From: Aquificota bacterium
GTDB taxonomy: Bacteria; Thermosulfidibacterota; Thermosulfidibacteria; Thermosulfidibacterales; B14-G1
DNA length: 64,000 nt
Direction of reading: 5' to 3'
NCBI GenBank assembly: GCA_015486015.1
Contig: WFSL01000014.1
Span: 62,001-126,000, forward strand
Under the pieces are notes generated by a model. That model searched no databases and was not told the origin of the DNA. It saw only the letters and a list, made by a program, of their open reading frames with translations. This document shows positions 3-47,450 of the stretch, piece by piece. The position numbers and the translations under genes were made by a program. How positions within the stretch are numbered: the first letter of the stretch is position 1; each line of letters starts with the position of its first letter.

Positions 3-488
3 GATATCATCTGGTGCAAAAAGGTGAAGGAAGACGGTACGGTGTGCAACACCGTGAACTATTTAGATCCCTTCAACTTCTGGAACTGGGAGGGGACCAT
101 CGCCTGTGCAGAGTGTGGCACCGTCTACTACATCCACATGATCCAGGGCTGGATGTACAGAGGGCCAGAGGAGCAGCCCCCTGGCACCAAACCCGATATC
201 CTCCCCGTCTATGCCGACAAGCCCTTGGAGGGTTATGTGCGCTACAGGCCTGGAGTGGAGGGCAGGACCAGACCCTATCTGTGCCTGCCCAGGGACATCT
301 ATCTGGGTGTGCCTGACCCCAGGCGCTTCAGCATCAGGGGATACCCCGTAAGGGGATGGCCAAACCAGCCGCCCTCCACAGGCATAGCGGGGTCTGCTGG
401 CTTCAAGTGGGAGATAGAGAAGCTCTCACCTGAGGTGTGGCAGGAGTTCTTGGAGAAGAAGAAGAAGGGCGAGGTCAGGGATTGGTAA
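3..488 (+). CDS. Unrecognised protein with a CxxC motif, 5' end cut off by the window
   Basis: The reading frame is open from base 3 to a TAA at 486-488, giving 161 residues of a protein whose start lies outside the window. I do not recognise the family. The visible part has two early cysteines, then a CAEC (CxxC) motif in an aromatic-rich stretch with many Trp and Tyr, and a lysine-rich C-terminus. The CxxC plus the earlier Cys could hold zinc or an iron-sulfur cluster, which is inference only. It is the first of four small same-strand genes with short gaps, so it probably belongs to an operon whose larger member(s) lie upstream. The alternative frame beginning near base 14 has no ribosome site and is discarded. 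Confidence 0.7.
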   Translation, partial: DIIWCKKVKEDGTVCNTVNYLDPFNFWNWEGTIACAECGTVYYIHMIQGWMYRGPEEQPPGTKPDILPVYADKPLEGYVRYRPGVEGRTRPYLCLPRDIYLGVPDPRRFSIRGYPVRGWPNQPPSTGIAGSAGFKWEIEKLSPEVWQEFLEKKKKGEVRDW

Positions 489-3161: not shown

Positions 3162-3995
3162 TTAATGGGGCGTCGGTTGAGGATAACCTGCCTCTAAGAA
3201 TTTTAGACTCTCTCTCCATTGTTCAAAGTAGCGAGTCAGTAATACCTCCTCTGGCGCATTAGATCTCCCTTTGGCCACCTCCATAATCGCATGGGTGAAG
3301 AGGATCCAGCTCTTGGCTATCTCACCAACCAAAGTCCCCCTCATATACCGGAACTCCACAGTACCCCTAAACCAGTAGGAGTGGAGATTGAGGCCATGGT
3401 AGCGGGTTTCGTTGTATCTCACCCTGCCGGGGGAGTTCTCCTCCTGGCTATACCAAAGCTCCCTCAGAGATTGGGGGTCCCTACACCCTGCCCCTGCATA
3501 ATCTCTAACCTTCTTCAGGAGCCAATTGGAGAGGGGCCTGCAAGATTTCTCCATCCGCCTTTCGTTGTTGGGGATGGCCTTAAATATCAAGGGCTCCCAT
3601 ATCCTCATAAGCCTCAGTAGGTTTACCAGCTCCTTGCACCCGAAGTCCGAGGCGTCATGGTGGACATGGAGTCCACAGCTCCCATCAACCGTGGCGCCCT
3701 GATCCTTGATAATCCTAAGGACCTTACCTACGTCCCTCAGACCTCGAGTGCCAGAGAGATGGGGGCTCGCCACCTCCACAGCCCCCTTCCCCCTGATAGA
3801 GTGATCCTCCTGAAGTCTCCAGGTGTCCTCTCCGTTGCCTATGGGCAGGCCAGACTCCTCGAATGCCCTCTTTAAGCCATCGGGTATGCGATAGGGGGGA
3901 ACAACGCCGCTGTCTATGGGTAGGAATCGTCCATACCAGAGATGATTCACCTCTATCTCCACACCAAACGGCCTGTCGCTCAAAAAAAGGCTCAT
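3162..3995 (-). CDS. Amidoligase-family enzyme (glutamine-synthetase-like fold)
   Basis: This 277-residue protein matches the amidoligase_2 (COOH-NH2 ligase) pattern. It has FGVEIEV at residues 10-16, EVASP near 74-78, CGLHVHHD at 107-114, and EFRYMRG at 214-220. These acidic, His and Arg positions are the metal/ATP-binding residues expected of the glutamine-synthetase-like fold. Such enzymes are predicted to join a carboxylate to an amine using ATP. The start codon overlaps the stop of the class II amidotransferase gene by 4 bases, the same pairing noted in published comparative work on amidoligases. In that model the partner releases ammonia or removes the isopeptide-type bond. The substrate (peptide, protein or cell wall) is unknown. 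Confidence 0.8.
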   Translation of the reverse strand: MSLFLSDRPFGVEIEVNHLWYGRFLPIDSGVVPPYRIPDGLKRAFEESGLPIGNGEDTWRLQEDHSIRGKGAVEVASPHLSGTRGLRDVGKVLRIIKDQGATVDGSCGLHVHHDASDFGCKELVNLLRLMRIWEPLIFKAIPNNERRMEKSCRPLSNWLLKKVRDYAGAGCRDPQSLRELWYSQEENSPGRVRYNETRYHGLNLHSYWFRGTVEFRYMRGTLVGEIAKSWILFTHAIMEVAKGRSNAPEEVLLTRYFEQWRESLKFLEAGYPQPTPH

Positions 3996-4714
3996 AGAGA
4001 GACTTTGATAGCACCATCTGCTATCACCTTCAACTCCCCCTTCCGAAACTCCTGCCAGGTCTCGGCCTGGAAGAGGGGTGTGGACGAGACCTGAACCACC
4101 GGATTGAGCGCCTCTTCAATTCGCCAAAAGAGGCTCCGGTGGCCACCGTAGAAGGCAAACACGATATGGGGGTTGGCCAAAATAAAATTGCACCTTTCCC
4201 CGGTTTTCGCACTGCAGGTGATGTCCGCCATCCATGAGATCAGCTCTTCTGTAGGGGGTGCACGGTCCTGAAACCGGTGCCACATGTGATTGAGCAACCA
4301 GCAGAAGAGGTGTTCCGTGTCTGTATCCCCCACAGGCCGGAAGCGTTGAGGGCCAGGGTGCTGCCTGTTGATCACATCCACCTCCCCATGATGGACGAAA
4401 ACCCAGGGCATCCCCCAGAGTTCCCTCACAAAGGGATGGGCATTGGCCATTGTCACCCTCCCCTTTGTGGCCCTACGGACATGCAGGATCGCCTGGTTGC
4501 TCTTCAGCTCTACCCTATCGAGGATGACCCTGAGGAGGGTGCTCTCCCGGGCAGGCTCCCTGCCCTTAAACATGAGGCACTCCCCCTCCAAAAAACAGGC
4601 AAAACCCCACCCGTCCTTATTGTAGGTATCTGGGATGAGGGGAAGGAAGAAATAGGTCATGAAGGACTGAAGAGAAAGGGGATACCTGGCAGAGAGGGCT
4701 GCCATCCGACACAT
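3992..4714 (-). CDS. Class II glutamine amidotransferase
   Basis: This is a 240-residue Ntn-hydrolase of the class II amidotransferase (YafJ/EgtC-like) type. Cys2, exposed after removal of Met1, is the expected nucleophile. Further motifs are DGWGFA (34-39), HVRRAT (78-83), NAHPF (91-95) and FVHHGEV (106-112), where His replaces the usual Asn of HNG. The family hydrolyses glutamine, or related gamma-glutamyl amides, to release ammonia. ATG is preceded by GGGAGAG. The downstream amidoligase overlaps by 4 bases, so the two form a two-gene unit. The gene stands alone from any purine or glutamate synthase context, which argues for a specialised role. Confidence 0.82.
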   Translation of the reverse strand: MCRMAALSARYPLSLQSFMTYFFLPLIPDTYNKDGWGFACFLEGECLMFKGREPARESTLLRVILDRVELKSNQAILHVRRATKGRVTMANAHPFVRELWGMPWVFVHHGEVDVINRQHPGPQRFRPVGDTDTEHLFCWLLNHMWHRFQDRAPPTEELISWMADITCSAKTGERCNFILANPHIVFAFYGGHRSLFWRIEEALNPVVQVSSTPLFQAETWQEFRKGELKVIADGAIKVSL

Positions 4715-41932: not shown

Positions 41933-41961
41933 TTGACATCCCCTGGTCCTTCTTCTATACA
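41933..41961 (+). promoter_or_regulatory. Promoter of the CoA-transferase cluster
   Basis: A perfect TTGACA (41933-41938), a 17-base spacer and TATACA (41956-41961) lie about 40-70 bases before the first start at 42002. It is one of the best promoter matches in the window. Confidence 0.6.
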
Positions 41962-42001: not shown

Positions 42002-43339
42002 ATGGACAGCGATTTTTTCCAATGGGCGGCTGAGGTTTTAGACCCCAAAAAGGCGTTCTTAAAACCTGAGGCCCTAAAAGGGGTACGGGTGCTGGAGGTG
42101 TGTACCCTTATTTTTGGTCCAGCTGTTCCTGACTGGCTTACGGATTTTGGAGCGGAGGTGATCAAGGTGGAGCTACCAGGCATGGGGGATACCATGAGGT
42201 ATGTTACGCCTTACGGATTTTTCTGGAAAAACCTTTCCCCCGCCTTTGAGGAGCAGAATCACAATAAATTCCACGTGGGCCTGGACTTAAGGAAGCCCGA
42301 GGGCAGAGAGATCTTCCTCGATCTGGCCAAGAAATCCGACCTGGTGGTGGAAAACATGAGGGCCGGCACCTTAGACAAGTGGGGTGTGGGTTACAGGGAC
42401 CTGAAAGAGGTGAATCCCCAAATCGTCTATTTGGCCAACAACGGCTTTGGCCAGTGGGGTCCCTATGCTCAAGGGCGCCCCAGCTATGATGCCATTGCTC
42501 AGTCGGTAAGCGGGCTCATGTCCATCTCGGGATTTCCGGGCAGGCCCCCCATGAAGGCTGGGGTGTGGATTGGAGACTTCACCGGGGCTTGTACTTCGTC
42601 TATTGCCTTACTGGCGGCCCTTTACTACGCCAAGAAGACGGGTAAAGGTCAGTTCATTGAGTTTTCCCAGGGTGAAAACCTTATGCGGTGGTTGGACTGG
42701 AGTTGGCTGTATGCCCACTTTACTGGTGAGAACAGGCCCCAAGCGGGAAATCGTGACCTGGCTATATGCCCCTCAGACCTTTTCAAGTGCAAGGACGGTC
42801 TCATAGCCATTGCCGCCTTTTCCGAGGAGGAATTCTCTGGTCTCTGCCAGGCTATGGGGAGGCCCGAGCTTGCTAATGATCCGCGGTTTAAAGATCCCTT
42901 GGAACGCCTCAAGGACGAGAATGCCAAGGCCATTTTAGAGCTCGTAGCTGATTGGACTAAAGGTAAGAATATGGCCGAAATAGACGAGTTGGGCGCCCAG
43001 TACGGTTTTGCCGCTACCCCGGTCCTCAACGCTAAAGACCAGTACGAGAGCGAGCATTGGAATATGAGGGGAGCCGTTTGTAAGTTTGAAGATCCCCTCT
43101 ATGGCGAGGTAGCCGAGGTGGGCCCTGTTCCCAAGATGTCCGAAACCCCGGGTAGGATGAAGTGGACCTCCAGGCCAGTGGGGTTCGACAATGAACATGT
43201 GTTCTTCAGGATAGCTGGCCTCTCCCAGGAAAGGTATCAGGAGTTAGTAGAAAAAGGCATCATAGGTAAGTGGGATGACAGGGTTGGGGCCAAACCCCCC
43301 GATGATTGGGACGGCAAGAAGGGACTCTTTTATCCGTAG
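42002..43339 (+). CDS. Class III CoA-transferase, catalytic-type subunit (pair 1)
   Basis: This 445-residue protein is of the CaiB/BaiF (class III) family. The CoA-binding N-terminal part has CTLIFGPAVPDWLTDFGAEVIKVE, and the core has the active-site region GVWIGDFTGA, where Asp192 takes the place of the catalytic aspartate that forms the acyl anhydride and CoA thioester. Enzymes of this family move CoA from succinyl-CoA or similar donors to carboxylic acids. Close paralogue of the third gene in the row; the second and fourth are partners. The arrangement resembles the heterodimeric BbsEF CoA-transferases, but the substrate is unknown. ATG 42002 follows GGGGGTGTGGA. Confidence 0.85.
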   Translation: MDSDFFQWAAEVLDPKKAFLKPEALKGVRVLEVCTLIFGPAVPDWLTDFGAEVIKVELPGMGDTMRYVTPYGFFWKNLSPAFEEQNHNKFHVGLDLRKPEGREIFLDLAKKSDLVVENMRAGTLDKWGVGYRDLKEVNPQIVYLANNGFGQWGPYAQGRPSYDAIAQSVSGLMSISGFPGRPPMKAGVWIGDFTGACTSSIALLAALYYAKKTGKGQFIEFSQGENLMRWLDWSWLYAHFTGENRPQAGNRDLAICPSDLFKCKDGLIAIAAFSEEEFSGLCQAMGRPELANDPRFKDPLERLKDENAKAILELVADWTKGKNMAEIDELGAQYGFAATPVLNAKDQYESEHWNMRGAVCKFEDPLYGEVAEVGPVPKMSETPGRMKWTSRPVGFDNEHVFFRIAGLSQERYQELVEKGIIGKWDDRVGAKPPDDWDGKKGLFYP

Positions 43340-43357
43340 ATTTGGGGAGGTGAAAAG

Positions 43358-44689
43358 ATGAGCATTGAGAAGGACAAATCTTGGGAGGAGTGGATTAGAG
43401 AACAGGATGACCCCAGGTACGCCCATAAGAAACCCGAGGCCTTGGAAGATGTGGTGGTGCTGGATGTGAGTAGGGCCCATATGGGTGGTTGCTTTGGAGC
43501 TTCTCTCTTGGCTGAACTGGGCGCTTTCGTGATAAGGATAGAGCCCCCTGGAGGGGATGTGGCCAGGAAATTCACCCCCTTTGGCATGCTCCATAAGGAC
43601 ACAGGCCTGGGTTATCTAAACGAGGGGCGCAATAAGTACCACATCACCCTTAATCTGGATACAGAGGAGGGGAGGGAGATCTATAAGGATCTGGCCCGTT
43701 ACGCCGATGTGATCATTGAGACCTTCAAACCGGGTGTGGCTGACGAAATGGGTATAGGCTATCGCCAACTCTCTCAGGTAAATCCTGGCCTCATTTACTG
43801 TGCCATTCACACTTATGGCCAGTTCGGCCCAGAGGCCGAGAAAAACAAGACCAAGCCCGATTACGACATTGCCGACCAGGCCCGGGGAGGCATTATGGCT
43901 ATAACAGGTGAGCCAGACCAGCCCGAGATACCCGATGAGTGCAAAGTCCCCACCAAAGAGGGTAACTGGATGGGTTGGTATGCTGGTGGCGTTTGGGCTG
44001 CATACGGTGCCTTGGTGGCCCTCATCTGGCGCATGGAGAGTGGCAAGGGTCAGTTCATAGACGTGGCTCCCCCTGAAGGTTTGCTCAAGTATTGCGACTA
44101 TCACCTTCAGTGGTACCATCAGGCCAAGGAGCTGAGGCCCAGGATAGGGCCCTACGACTCGGCCGTCTTCCCATATACCTTTGTAAAGACCAAAGATGGC
44201 ACAAACTTCATCTCTGGCTTTTCCGATGTGAACTGGGCCCATTTGTGCAACATCATGGGAAAGCCCGAAGTAAAGGATATGTTCCCCACCATATTTGACA
44301 GGCTCAATCCTGAGAACCAGCCCAAGATCCATCAGATTGTTGAGGAGTGGTCCAAGAATCTCACTTCTCAGGAGCTTACAGATAGGGTAATGAAGTTCAA
44401 CCTGGCCCCCGATGCCGTGGGTGTGGTGGCTACAGCCAAAGTCAACAGACCATTGGACGCCTTGGGTGAGGAAAACTGGTGGATCCGCTGTGCCTTTGCC
44501 AAGTTCAAGGACCCGGACTATGGAGAGCTCACCATTGCCAATCCGGCCTTCAACAGAATGACGGAGACCCCGGCCAGGGTAAAATGGTTGTGCAGGCCTG
44601 TGGGAGCAGACAATGTGCTTATATTTGAGAAATTCCTGGGATACGGTCCGAGCAAGTTGGAGGATTTGAAATCTAAAGGCATCATATAA
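43358..44689 (+). CDS. Class III CoA-transferase-like subunit lacking the catalytic Asp (pair 1)
   Basis: This is a 443-residue class III CoA-transferase homologue with [30 protein letters not shown] and CRPVGADN. At the position of the catalytic aspartate it reads [10 protein letters not shown], so Trp207 replaces Asp and the subunit is unlikely to form the acyl-enzyme intermediate. It is expected to serve as the structural/CoA-binding partner of the preceding subunit, as in heterodimeric members. It lies 18 bases after the first gene with GGGGAGGTG before the ATG. The closest relative in the window is the fourth gene, which has the same replacement. Confidence 0.83.
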
Positions 44690-44700
44690 GGAGGGACGAG

Positions 44701-46041
44701 ATGGCTAAAAGTGACTACTTTGAATGGGCTGGGGAACTCTTTTCTCTGGAAGAGGTCTTTTCCAAACCTGAGGCCCTGAGCGACATCAAGATCGTGGAGT
44801 TCTGTACCCTGATCCTCGGTCCTTCTACCCCTGCTTACCTCACGGAGTTTGGAGCCACCGTTTTTAAGGTGGAGCTGCCTGGCATGGGAGACACCATGCG
44901 TTCCCTCACCCCCTGGGGGTGGTTCTGGAAGAAGCAGGCATTGGGTTGGCTCAAGTGCGCCAGAAACAAGCTACACGTGGCTATTGACTGCCACAAAGAA
45001 GAGGGGAAGGAGCTCTTCAAGAGATTGGTGGCCCAGTCGGATGTGGTGGTGGAGAACCTGCGTGGAGGTACCCTGGATAGGTGGGGCATTGGGTACAGAG
45101 ATTTAGTTGAGATAAACCCTGGCCTCATCTACATTGCCAATAACGGTTTTGGCCAGTGGGGTCCATATTTGGTGAGGCCCTCATACGATGCTATTGCCCA
45201 GTCGGAATCTGGGGAGGCTTGGATATCGGGATTTCCAGGCAGGCTCCCCATGAAGAGTGGGATCTGGCTCTGCGACTACTATGGGGGTCTTATGTCTGCT
45301 GTGGGTATTCTGGTGGCCCTCCACTACAGGGACAGGACTGGCAAGGGCCAGTATATGGAGATGTCTCAAGCAGAGAACATCATGAGGGCCATGGATTGGA
45401 CCTGGCTTTACTGCCACCTCACTGGCAAGGATAGAGACCGGTACGGTAACAGGGATGTGGCCATATGCCCTTCCGACATCTTCAGGAGTATGGATGGGGA
45501 ATTGGTGGCAGTGGCCGCCACCACCGATGAGCAGTTTAAGGGTCTCTGTGAGGCTATGGGTAAGCCTGAGCTGGCCGATGATCCCCGCTTTGTCACCAAC
45601 CTGGAGAGAACAAAGGAGGGCCATGCAGAGGAGCTCCTCTCCATAGTAAGAGACTGGGTGGCAAACAACACCTGGCAGGTGATAGACAGACAGGCCCAAA
45701 AGTACGGTTTCGCTGCAGAAAAGGTCTACAATGGACGTGACCATTACTACGATGAGCACTTCGAGATAAGGGGTTTCAAGTGGCACATTGACGACCCTAT
45801 TCTTGGGGATGGGGTAGAAGAAGGTGTGGCACCTAAGTTGTCTGAGACCCCTGGTAGGATAAAGTGGATGGGCAAGCCCGTTGGTTTCGACAACGAGTAT
45901 GTGCTCACCAAGTACCTGGGCCTCACTCAGGATCAGATCAAGGAATTAGAAGACAAGGGAGTTATTGGCAAGTGGACAGACTTCATAAGCAGAACGCCAC
46001 CTGATGAGTGGGACGGTAAATCTGGAATTATTTTCCCATAA
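44701..46041 (+). CDS. Class III CoA-transferase, catalytic-type subunit (pair 2)
   Basis: This 446-residue protein is a paralogue of the gene at 42002: [24 protein letters not shown], a shared [10 protein letters not shown] segment, a core [11 protein letters not shown], and Asp192 in [10 protein letters not shown]. It begins 11 bases after the previous stop with AAGGAGG. The two catalytic-type proteins differ at many positions throughout, so this is an old duplication and not an assembly artefact. Likely partner: the following gene at 46054. Confidence 0.85.
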
Positions 46042-46053
46042 AGGAGGTTGGAG

Positions 46054-47397
46054 ATGGCCGTTGATAAATCTATACCCTGGGGTGAGTGGATTAGAGAGAA
46101 AGACGATCCCAGGTTCAACAGGGAGAAACCTGAGGCCCTGGACGATCTCTGGGTCTTAGATTTGAGCTACGCCAACATAGGTGCCTGCTTTGCCTCCTCC
46201 ATACTGGCGGAATGTGGTGCCAACGTGATCAGGGTGGAACCCCCTGGAGGGGACCCTGCCCGTAAGTATACACCCTTTGGCATCACCCATATGGGAGAGG
46301 GCCTGGGTTATCTAAACGAGGGGCGCAACAAGTACCACATTACTCTAAACTTAGAGACAGAAGAAGGGAGGGAGATACTTAAGAGGCTGGTGGATAATCG
46401 GATAGACGTACTCATTGAAAGCTTCAAGGCCGGACAGATGGATGAATGGGGCATCGGCTATCGTCAGCTCAGAGAACTCAAACCTGACCTCATTTATTGT
46501 GCCATTTATACCTATGGCCAATACGGGCCAAAGGCTGCCTGCAACAAGGCGGATGCTGATGTGGTAGATCAGGCCATGTCCGGTGTAACTTATGTCTCTG
46601 GTGAATATGTGGAAGACCCCAACAACCCCCAAGAGTGGGAAGTGCCCACCAAGCAGGGGAATTGGCAGGGTTGGTACAATGGTGGCGCTTACGCCGCATT
46701 TGCCATCCTCACCGCCCTCCATTACAGGCACCGGACAGGGAAGGGCCAGATGATAGACGTCTCTCCCGCTGAGGCTCTGGGCAGGATGATTAACTACAGC
46801 TTGAACTACTTTCATGGTAAAGGCGAAACAGTGGAAAGGGTGGGTAACCTGGATGCAGGTGTCTTTTGTTACACCTACTTTAAGTGCAAGGACGGTTTCT
46901 GCTTCTTATCTGGTTTCTCCGATGTGAACTGGAGTCTGCTCACTGAGGTGATAGAAAGGCCCGATCTTAGGGAACAGTATCCCACTATCTTTGAGCGCTT
47001 AAAGTTTGAGAACATGAAGAAGGCTTACAAAGAGATTGAGAAATGGACTCTGGCCCACGAGTATCAGGAGATATACGACAAATGTATGGCTGCCAATGAC
47101 GAGGCGAAAAGTACAGGTAAAGGCGGCGTGGTGGTGCCTGGTAAGATCTGCTCACCCTTGGAGAATATTTCAGATGAAAATAATAATTGGTGGATAAGGG
47201 GGCTCTTTGAAAAATTCAAGGACCCCATATACGGAGAATTGGTGATCGCCAATCTACCATGGAAGATGTCTGGGTCGCCTTGGAGAGTGAAGTGGATTTG
47301 TAGGCCTGTGGGTGCAGACAACCTGTTCATCTTCAACACCCTTCTGGGAATAGGGAAAGGGAAACTCCAGGAGTTGAAAAATAGGGGGGTAGTGTAA
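46054..47397 (+). CDS. Class III CoA-transferase-like subunit lacking the catalytic Asp (pair 2)
   Basis: This 447-residue paralogue of the gene at 43358 contains VEPPGGDPARKYTPF and [15 protein letters not shown]. Trp207 in GNWQGWYNGG stands in for the catalytic Asp. ATG 46054 has AAGGAGG at 46041-46047; a TTG at 46048 is less likely. A longer acidic insertion (EYVEDPNNPQEWEV, about 184-197) distinguishes it from its sister. Together with the third gene it should form a second heterodimer. Confidence 0.84.
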   Translation: MAVDKSIPWGEWIREKDDPRFNREKPEALDDLWVLDLSYANIGACFASSILAECGANVIRVEPPGGDPARKYTPFGITHMGEGLGYLNEGRNKYHITLNLETEEGREILKRLVDNRIDVLIESFKAGQMDEWGIGYRQLRELKPDLIYCAIYTYGQYGPKAACNKADADVVDQAMSGVTYVSGEYVEDPNNPQEWEVPTKQGNWQGWYNGGAYAAFAILTALHYRHRTGKGQMIDVSPAEALGRMINYSLNYFHGKGETVERVGNLDAGVFCYTYFKCKDGFCFLSGFSDVNWSLLTEVIERPDLREQYPTIFERLKFENMKKAYKEIEKWTLAHEYQEIYDKCMAANDEAKSTGKGGVVVPGKICSPLENISDENNNWWIRGLFEKFKDPIYGELVIANLPWKMSGSPWRVKWICRPVGADNLFIFNTLLGIGKGKLQELKNRGVV

Positions 47398-47419: not shown

Positions 47420-47450
47420 AGGGATGGGGGATTGTCCTCCATCCCTTTTG
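47420..47450 (+). terminator. Intrinsic terminator of the CoA-transferase cluster
   Basis: A 12-bp stem (AGGGATGGGGGA with TCCTCCATCCCT, one G-T pair), a 3-base loop (TTG) and a T-rich tail (TTTTGTGCTTTT) lie 23 bases after the last stop. This is a strong rho-independent terminator, so the aminotransferase gene needs its own promoter. Confidence 0.75.

Follow-up and report, generated by a model that had tools for sequence, protein, structure and literature searches.

The window (the whole 64,000-nucleotide stretch of DNA analysed here) carries two tandem pairs of class III CoA-transferase genes in which a subunit bearing the catalytic aspartate, A, is followed by a homologue, B, bearing tryptophan in its place. 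The fixation of Asp and Trp, the adjacency of A and B, their division into separate clades and the mirroring of their trees together mark an obligate heterodimer in which only one subunit is catalytic, and we consider this architecture, with heterodimer assembly and one active site per dimer, very probable. An earlier note on this DNA, which proposed two heterodimer-type class III enzymes with one subunit each devoid of the catalytic aspartate, is supported in this respect.

We propose that each A-B pair acts as an obligate heterodimeric class III CoA-transferase. The nucleophilic Asp of A would form the acyl-anhydride and CoA-thioester intermediates, and B, having the same fold with Trp in the place of Asp, would complete the interlocked dimer and shape the one functional active site in it. 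Each pair would serve a different acid acceptor. For A2B2 the exchange of CoA would most likely be between succinyl-CoA and propionate, or another short monocarboxylate like it, and its product would feed propionyl-CoA carboxylase and then methylmalonyl-CoA mutase. A1B1 may perform a like exchange with a related acid that is short or branched. The whole explanation, architecture and substrate class together, appears to us evenly balanced between right and wrong, the substrates and the direction of transfer being putative.

Organization and distribution of the four-gene unit

A1 (42002..43339), B1 (43358..44689), A2 (44701..46041) and its partner B2 (46054..47397) lie head to tail on the forward strand, with intergenic gaps of 18, 11 and 12 bases and with Shine-Dalgarno-like sequences. 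The four alternating CaiB/BaiF genes described earlier are confirmed as open reading frames, each matched over its full length by the PF02515 profile with E values on the scale of 1e-86 to 1e-115 (1.9e-115 for A1, 8.1e-86 for B1, 1.4e-102 for A2 and 1.3e-86 for B2). The unit ends in an intrinsic terminator with a 12-pair stem and a T-rich tail (47420..47446, forward strand), which proves as real as had been claimed. The promoter placed at 41933 by the same reading is visible by eye as a promoter-like TTGACA-17-TATACA (41933..41961, forward strand) that agrees with the consensus at 10 of 12 positions; our consensus promoter scan did not return this site, because its -10 box ends in A. Longer TTG starts suggested by the open reading frame finder for A1 (41933) and B2 (46048) are not supported: the orthologues begin at the ATG positions, and the TTG start of A1 also overlaps the promoter-like sequence. 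A1 and B1 (43337-43358), like A2 and B2 (46039-46054), stand in the same frame with a single stop codon between them, probably by chance.

The source genome measures 1.62 Mb. B genes close to B1 are present in all nine genomes of the phylum that were examined, and the full quartet in six of them (G000, G001, G002, G003, G005 and G008); in the others the quartet is less complete or its genes lie at contig edges. Beyond the phylum, Syntrophobacteria-type Desulfobacterota also carry A-B pairs, in 33 of 56 genomes and with one to four B genes per genome. This distribution gives no support to the earlier view of the duplicated pair as unusual, at least for its lineage. A plasmid search yielded distant homologues only, at less than 60% identity.

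Replacement of the catalytic aspartate

Asp192 of the A subunits (within GDFTGA in A1 and CDYYGG in A2) and Trp207 of the B subunits (within GWYAGG in B1 and GWYNGG in B2) occupy one alignment column, as the earlier note had them, and this column corresponds by alignment to Asp169 of E. coli Frc. YfdE and CaiB of the same species also have Asp there. When the B profile is aligned to solved class III structures, Trp itself falls on the column of the catalytic Asp, and no aspartate aligns nearby in the B subunits, a possibility that had been raised against the original observation. Among all relatives collected, the column holds Asp in 62 of 62 A subunits and Trp in 63 of 64 B subunits, the exception having His. 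Only five columns are at least 90% conserved in A and in B and yet differ between them, and the catalytic column is one of these. The Asp/Trp pattern is real, no product of chance, conserved and more general than was apparent from the four genes. A1 and A2 retain the catalytic Asp at the position of Frc Asp169 and B1 and B2 lack it; judged by its sequence, B is a class III homologue and not a catalytic member by itself. The sole B subunit with His at the catalytic column (L099, 5649-7037) has a Liv-type transporter nearby.

Pairing and co-divergence of the subunits

All 61 scored pairs are adjacent, with A before B in the same direction. A quick tree, with E. coli CaiB as its only root, divides A from B as distinct, well supported clades (SH-aLRT 97 and 99), and the distances within A and within B are correlated over the 61 pairs with r = 0.89, the maximum reached by permutation being 0.16 (2000 shuffles). 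These observations bear on the possibility that A is an ordinary homodimer and B a separate homodimer, either non-catalytic or regulatory or devoted to another reaction of the racemase or isomerase kind. Most class III enzymes are indeed homodimers with Asp in both chains, and B retains many of the residues conserved at the level of the fold, but the strict adjacency of A and B, the mirrored trees and the absence of any orphan A without B among the sampled loci make such an arrangement highly improbable, and a fused A-B model that appears to fold better than B alone also argues against it.

For this model, A1-B1 was treated as one chain by reading through the single in-frame stop. It reached a pTM of 0.77 and a mean pLDDT of 68.5, which amounts to moderate confidence; its best structural match was SUGCT (succinyl-CoA:glutarate CoA-transferase) with a TM of 0.83 per target chain, a match that may be to the A half. 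B2 modelled alone gave a pTM of 0.66 and a TM of 0.54 at about 10 A rmsd. The scores, which come from different proteins and from models built on few sequences (9 and 28), agree with a fold that needs its partner.

A heterodimeric architecture leaves room for mixed complexes, A1-B2 and A2-B1, with the quartet being one enzyme system of several assemblies. The placement of the four genes in one transcription unit and their joint conservation in six genomes would suit such a system, but A and B co-diverge pairwise, and the quartet of G005 has its first pair from another clade while A2B2 is retained, so that we regard mixed complexes as highly improbable. The pair is the unit, and the quartet is not one mixed complex, because pairs like A1B1 and pairs like A2B2 are found apart from each other in many genomes. 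On the same ground, of the two options offered earlier, two enzymes with related substrates or a mixed complex, the former is preferred. A recent tandem duplication was rejected as the source of the quartet, since A1B1 and A2B2 resemble each other at about 54% and both have counterparts in other phyla to which they are closer; by this measure they are ancient paralogues.

Comparison with known CoA-transferases

The closest known arrangement is that of BbsEF (benzylsuccinate CoA-transferase), a class III enzyme with two different homologous subunits; the 61 adjacent A-B pairs are likewise encoded side by side. In BbsEF, too, probably only one of the two subunits is catalytic. The title of PDB 9fol places the adduct on Asp178 only, and Asp192 of A1 equals position 178 in chain B of 9fn0 by residue counting in a fragment alignment, assuming no gap. 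A scores higher against chain B of 9fn0 than against chain A (134.6 and 87.3 bits), and B scores slightly higher against chain A than against chain B (73.9 and 70.6 bits). The likeness does not extend further: the BbsEF sequences are distant from those of the quartet, and the bbs operon is absent around it. BbsEF chemistry is unlikely here because none of the nine phylum genomes has a match to a PFL-like glycyl radical enzyme (PF02901, benzylsuccinate-synthase type), and a benzylsuccinate or fumarate-addition role in this phylum was rejected for the same reason. The comparison with BbsEF drawn in the earlier note is thus fair as a structural analogy, but a benzylsuccinate-like substrate is not to be expected.

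SUGCT, Frc (formyl-CoA:oxalate) and YfdE (acetyl-CoA:oxalate) have the fold and the catalytic Asp column in common with A and B. These enzymes are homodimers with two catalytic subunits, whereas the A-B pairs have a dedicated subunit without Asp. The reaction proposed for A2B2 is that of the class I succinyl-CoA:propionate or acetate CoA-transferases of the methylmalonyl-CoA pathway, but these belong to an unrelated protein family, and the window genome lacks their Cat1-type C-terminal domain. None of the NCBIfam equivalogs for mesaconate, glutarate, oxalate and carnitine CoA-transferases reached its curated cut-off with the quartet, the best score being 230 bits against a cut-off of 700.

Genomic context and acid acceptors

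What could be the acids accepted by these enzymes? In Syntrophobacteria, the relatives of A2B2 adjoin genes for the large subunit of methylmalonyl-CoA mutase, its B12-binding subunit and MeaB. A small open reading frame and an SSF symporter are often present at these loci, in several of them with the symporter between the pair and the mutase genes, and the symporter matches acetate or monocarboxylate transporter models below their cut-offs. A mutase lies within 8.5 kb at 9 of 12 A2B2-type loci and at 1 of 35 other pairs (Fisher p = 1.5e-6, on loci that are not independent, the nine positive ones being partly close relatives). Two of the three A2B2-type loci lacking a mutase (L091 and L186) end at contig edges; L183 has 9 kb of flank and no mutase in it. 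The conversion of succinyl-CoA and propionate to succinate and propionyl-CoA is balanced and would fit the methylmalonyl-CoA pathway. The link to this pathway that characterizes a succinyl-CoA:propionate CoA-transferase is found in the Syntrophobacteria relatives of A2B2, and in the window genome the pathway genes are present but unlinked.

No mutase genes adjoin the quartet in the window genome, and across the phylum its neighbourhood contains no conserved substrate gene. The earlier observation that no substrate gene is adjacent holds for the window but not for relatives, where the A2B2 type stands next to the mutase. Elsewhere in the same genome, one operon (L166) combines a carboxyltransferase, biotin carboxylase, biotin carrier and mutase, of the propionyl-CoA-carboxylase type, and a second mutase operon (L167) contains acyl-CoA dehydrogenase-like, cobalamin adenosyltransferase-like, mutase, class I CoA-transferase pair, B12 subunit and MeaB-like genes, some of the names in both being given by eye or by homology to Syntrophobacteria genes. 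The class I pair (PF01144) lies between the mutase subunits of this second operon (L167, 8886-13662), and this arrangement is kept in L170, L172 and L176. Neither a Cat1-type acetyl-CoA hydrolase/transferase nor an SSF symporter was found in the window genome; the first absence favours the role proposed for A2B2, and the second, like the separation of the quartet from the mutase genes, tells against it. Alternatives for acid activation in it, any of which could act on propionate in place of A2B2, are succinyl-CoA synthetase (sucC), the class I pair and AMP-forming ligases; with sucC present, the idea of a simple replacement of succinyl-CoA synthetase is weakened.

Other pair clades adjoin Liv-type ABC transporters, GlcD/GlcF with a TRAP transporter, and thiolase or acyl-CoA dehydrogenase genes, mostly named by eye. 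The neighbours vary among the clades, so the acid acceptors would differ as well. This variation lends weight to an alternative that keeps the heterodimeric chemistry but assigns it larger or branched acceptors from the breakdown of branched-chain amino acids, hydroxy acids or alicyclic compounds, the mutase link then being one of neighbourhood or of a different mutase product. The occurrence in sister genomes of a third mutase type together with transporter and CoA-ligase genes points the same way. The A2B2 type, however, specifically adjoins a mutase with its MeaB chaperone and a symporter of the acetate or monocarboxylate kind, and we hold larger acceptors to be an unlikely, if serious, possibility. 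The clusters of the sister genomes (L173, 3359-12208; L174, 2357-11214) comprise a TRAP transporter, a GlcD/GlcF-type oxidase, a GntR-like regulator, divergent large and small mutase subunits and a CoA-ligase-like gene, and are candidates for a pathway that handles a branched hydroxy acid.

The preferred assignment of A2B2 to propionate is of particular relevance to Syntrophobacter fumaroxidans, the predicted propionate-activating genes of which were undetected in proteomes, leading to the proposal of other CoA-transferases (PMC8691401). The A2B2-type pair beside methylmalonyl-CoA mutase offers a concrete candidate for propionate activation in relatives, among genes that would otherwise be annotated just as members of the CaiB/BaiF family. 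The fixed Asp-to-Trp replacement in one subunit would also provide a clean case of a duplicated enzyme turned into an obligate heterodimer with one silent site. Tentatively, and with more doubt than we attach to the assignment itself, we suggest that the pairs belong to a class III CoA-transferase family as yet without a name, whose members are obligate one-active-site enzymes with Trp permanently in the place of the catalytic Asp in a dedicated partner subunit. Such a family would have diversified over several kinds of substrate among syntrophic and sulfate-reducing-type bacteria, and it would provide the propionate activation that is missing from the methylmalonyl-CoA pathway. In the part of the literature covered by our search, nothing was found on the Trp subunit or on class III pairs linked to this pathway.

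Probable origin of the silent subunit and a third pair

Since the A and B clades are separate and their distances mirrored, the split between A and B would be older than all these paralogues, and a single origin of Trp is the simplest reading of the tree. A third CoA-transferase pair, missed by the earlier note, is located just upstream of the window (L009, 6950-9984), in the order B3-A3. B3 is the sister of the Trp clade (support 83), and both subunits of this pair have Asp, which makes a heterodimer with two Asp the probable ancestor of the silent-subunit pairs. B3-A3 is followed by a 163-aa cysteine-containing protein without a Pfam match (window 24-488), and the trio is kept in other members of the phylum and in Syntrophobacteria (L088, L094, L100 and L101). 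Near the third pair, the window also encodes a class II glutamine-amidotransferase-like protein and a 277-aa neighbour (3162-4714), look-alikes of which were recognized by eye next to this pair in both L088 and L094.
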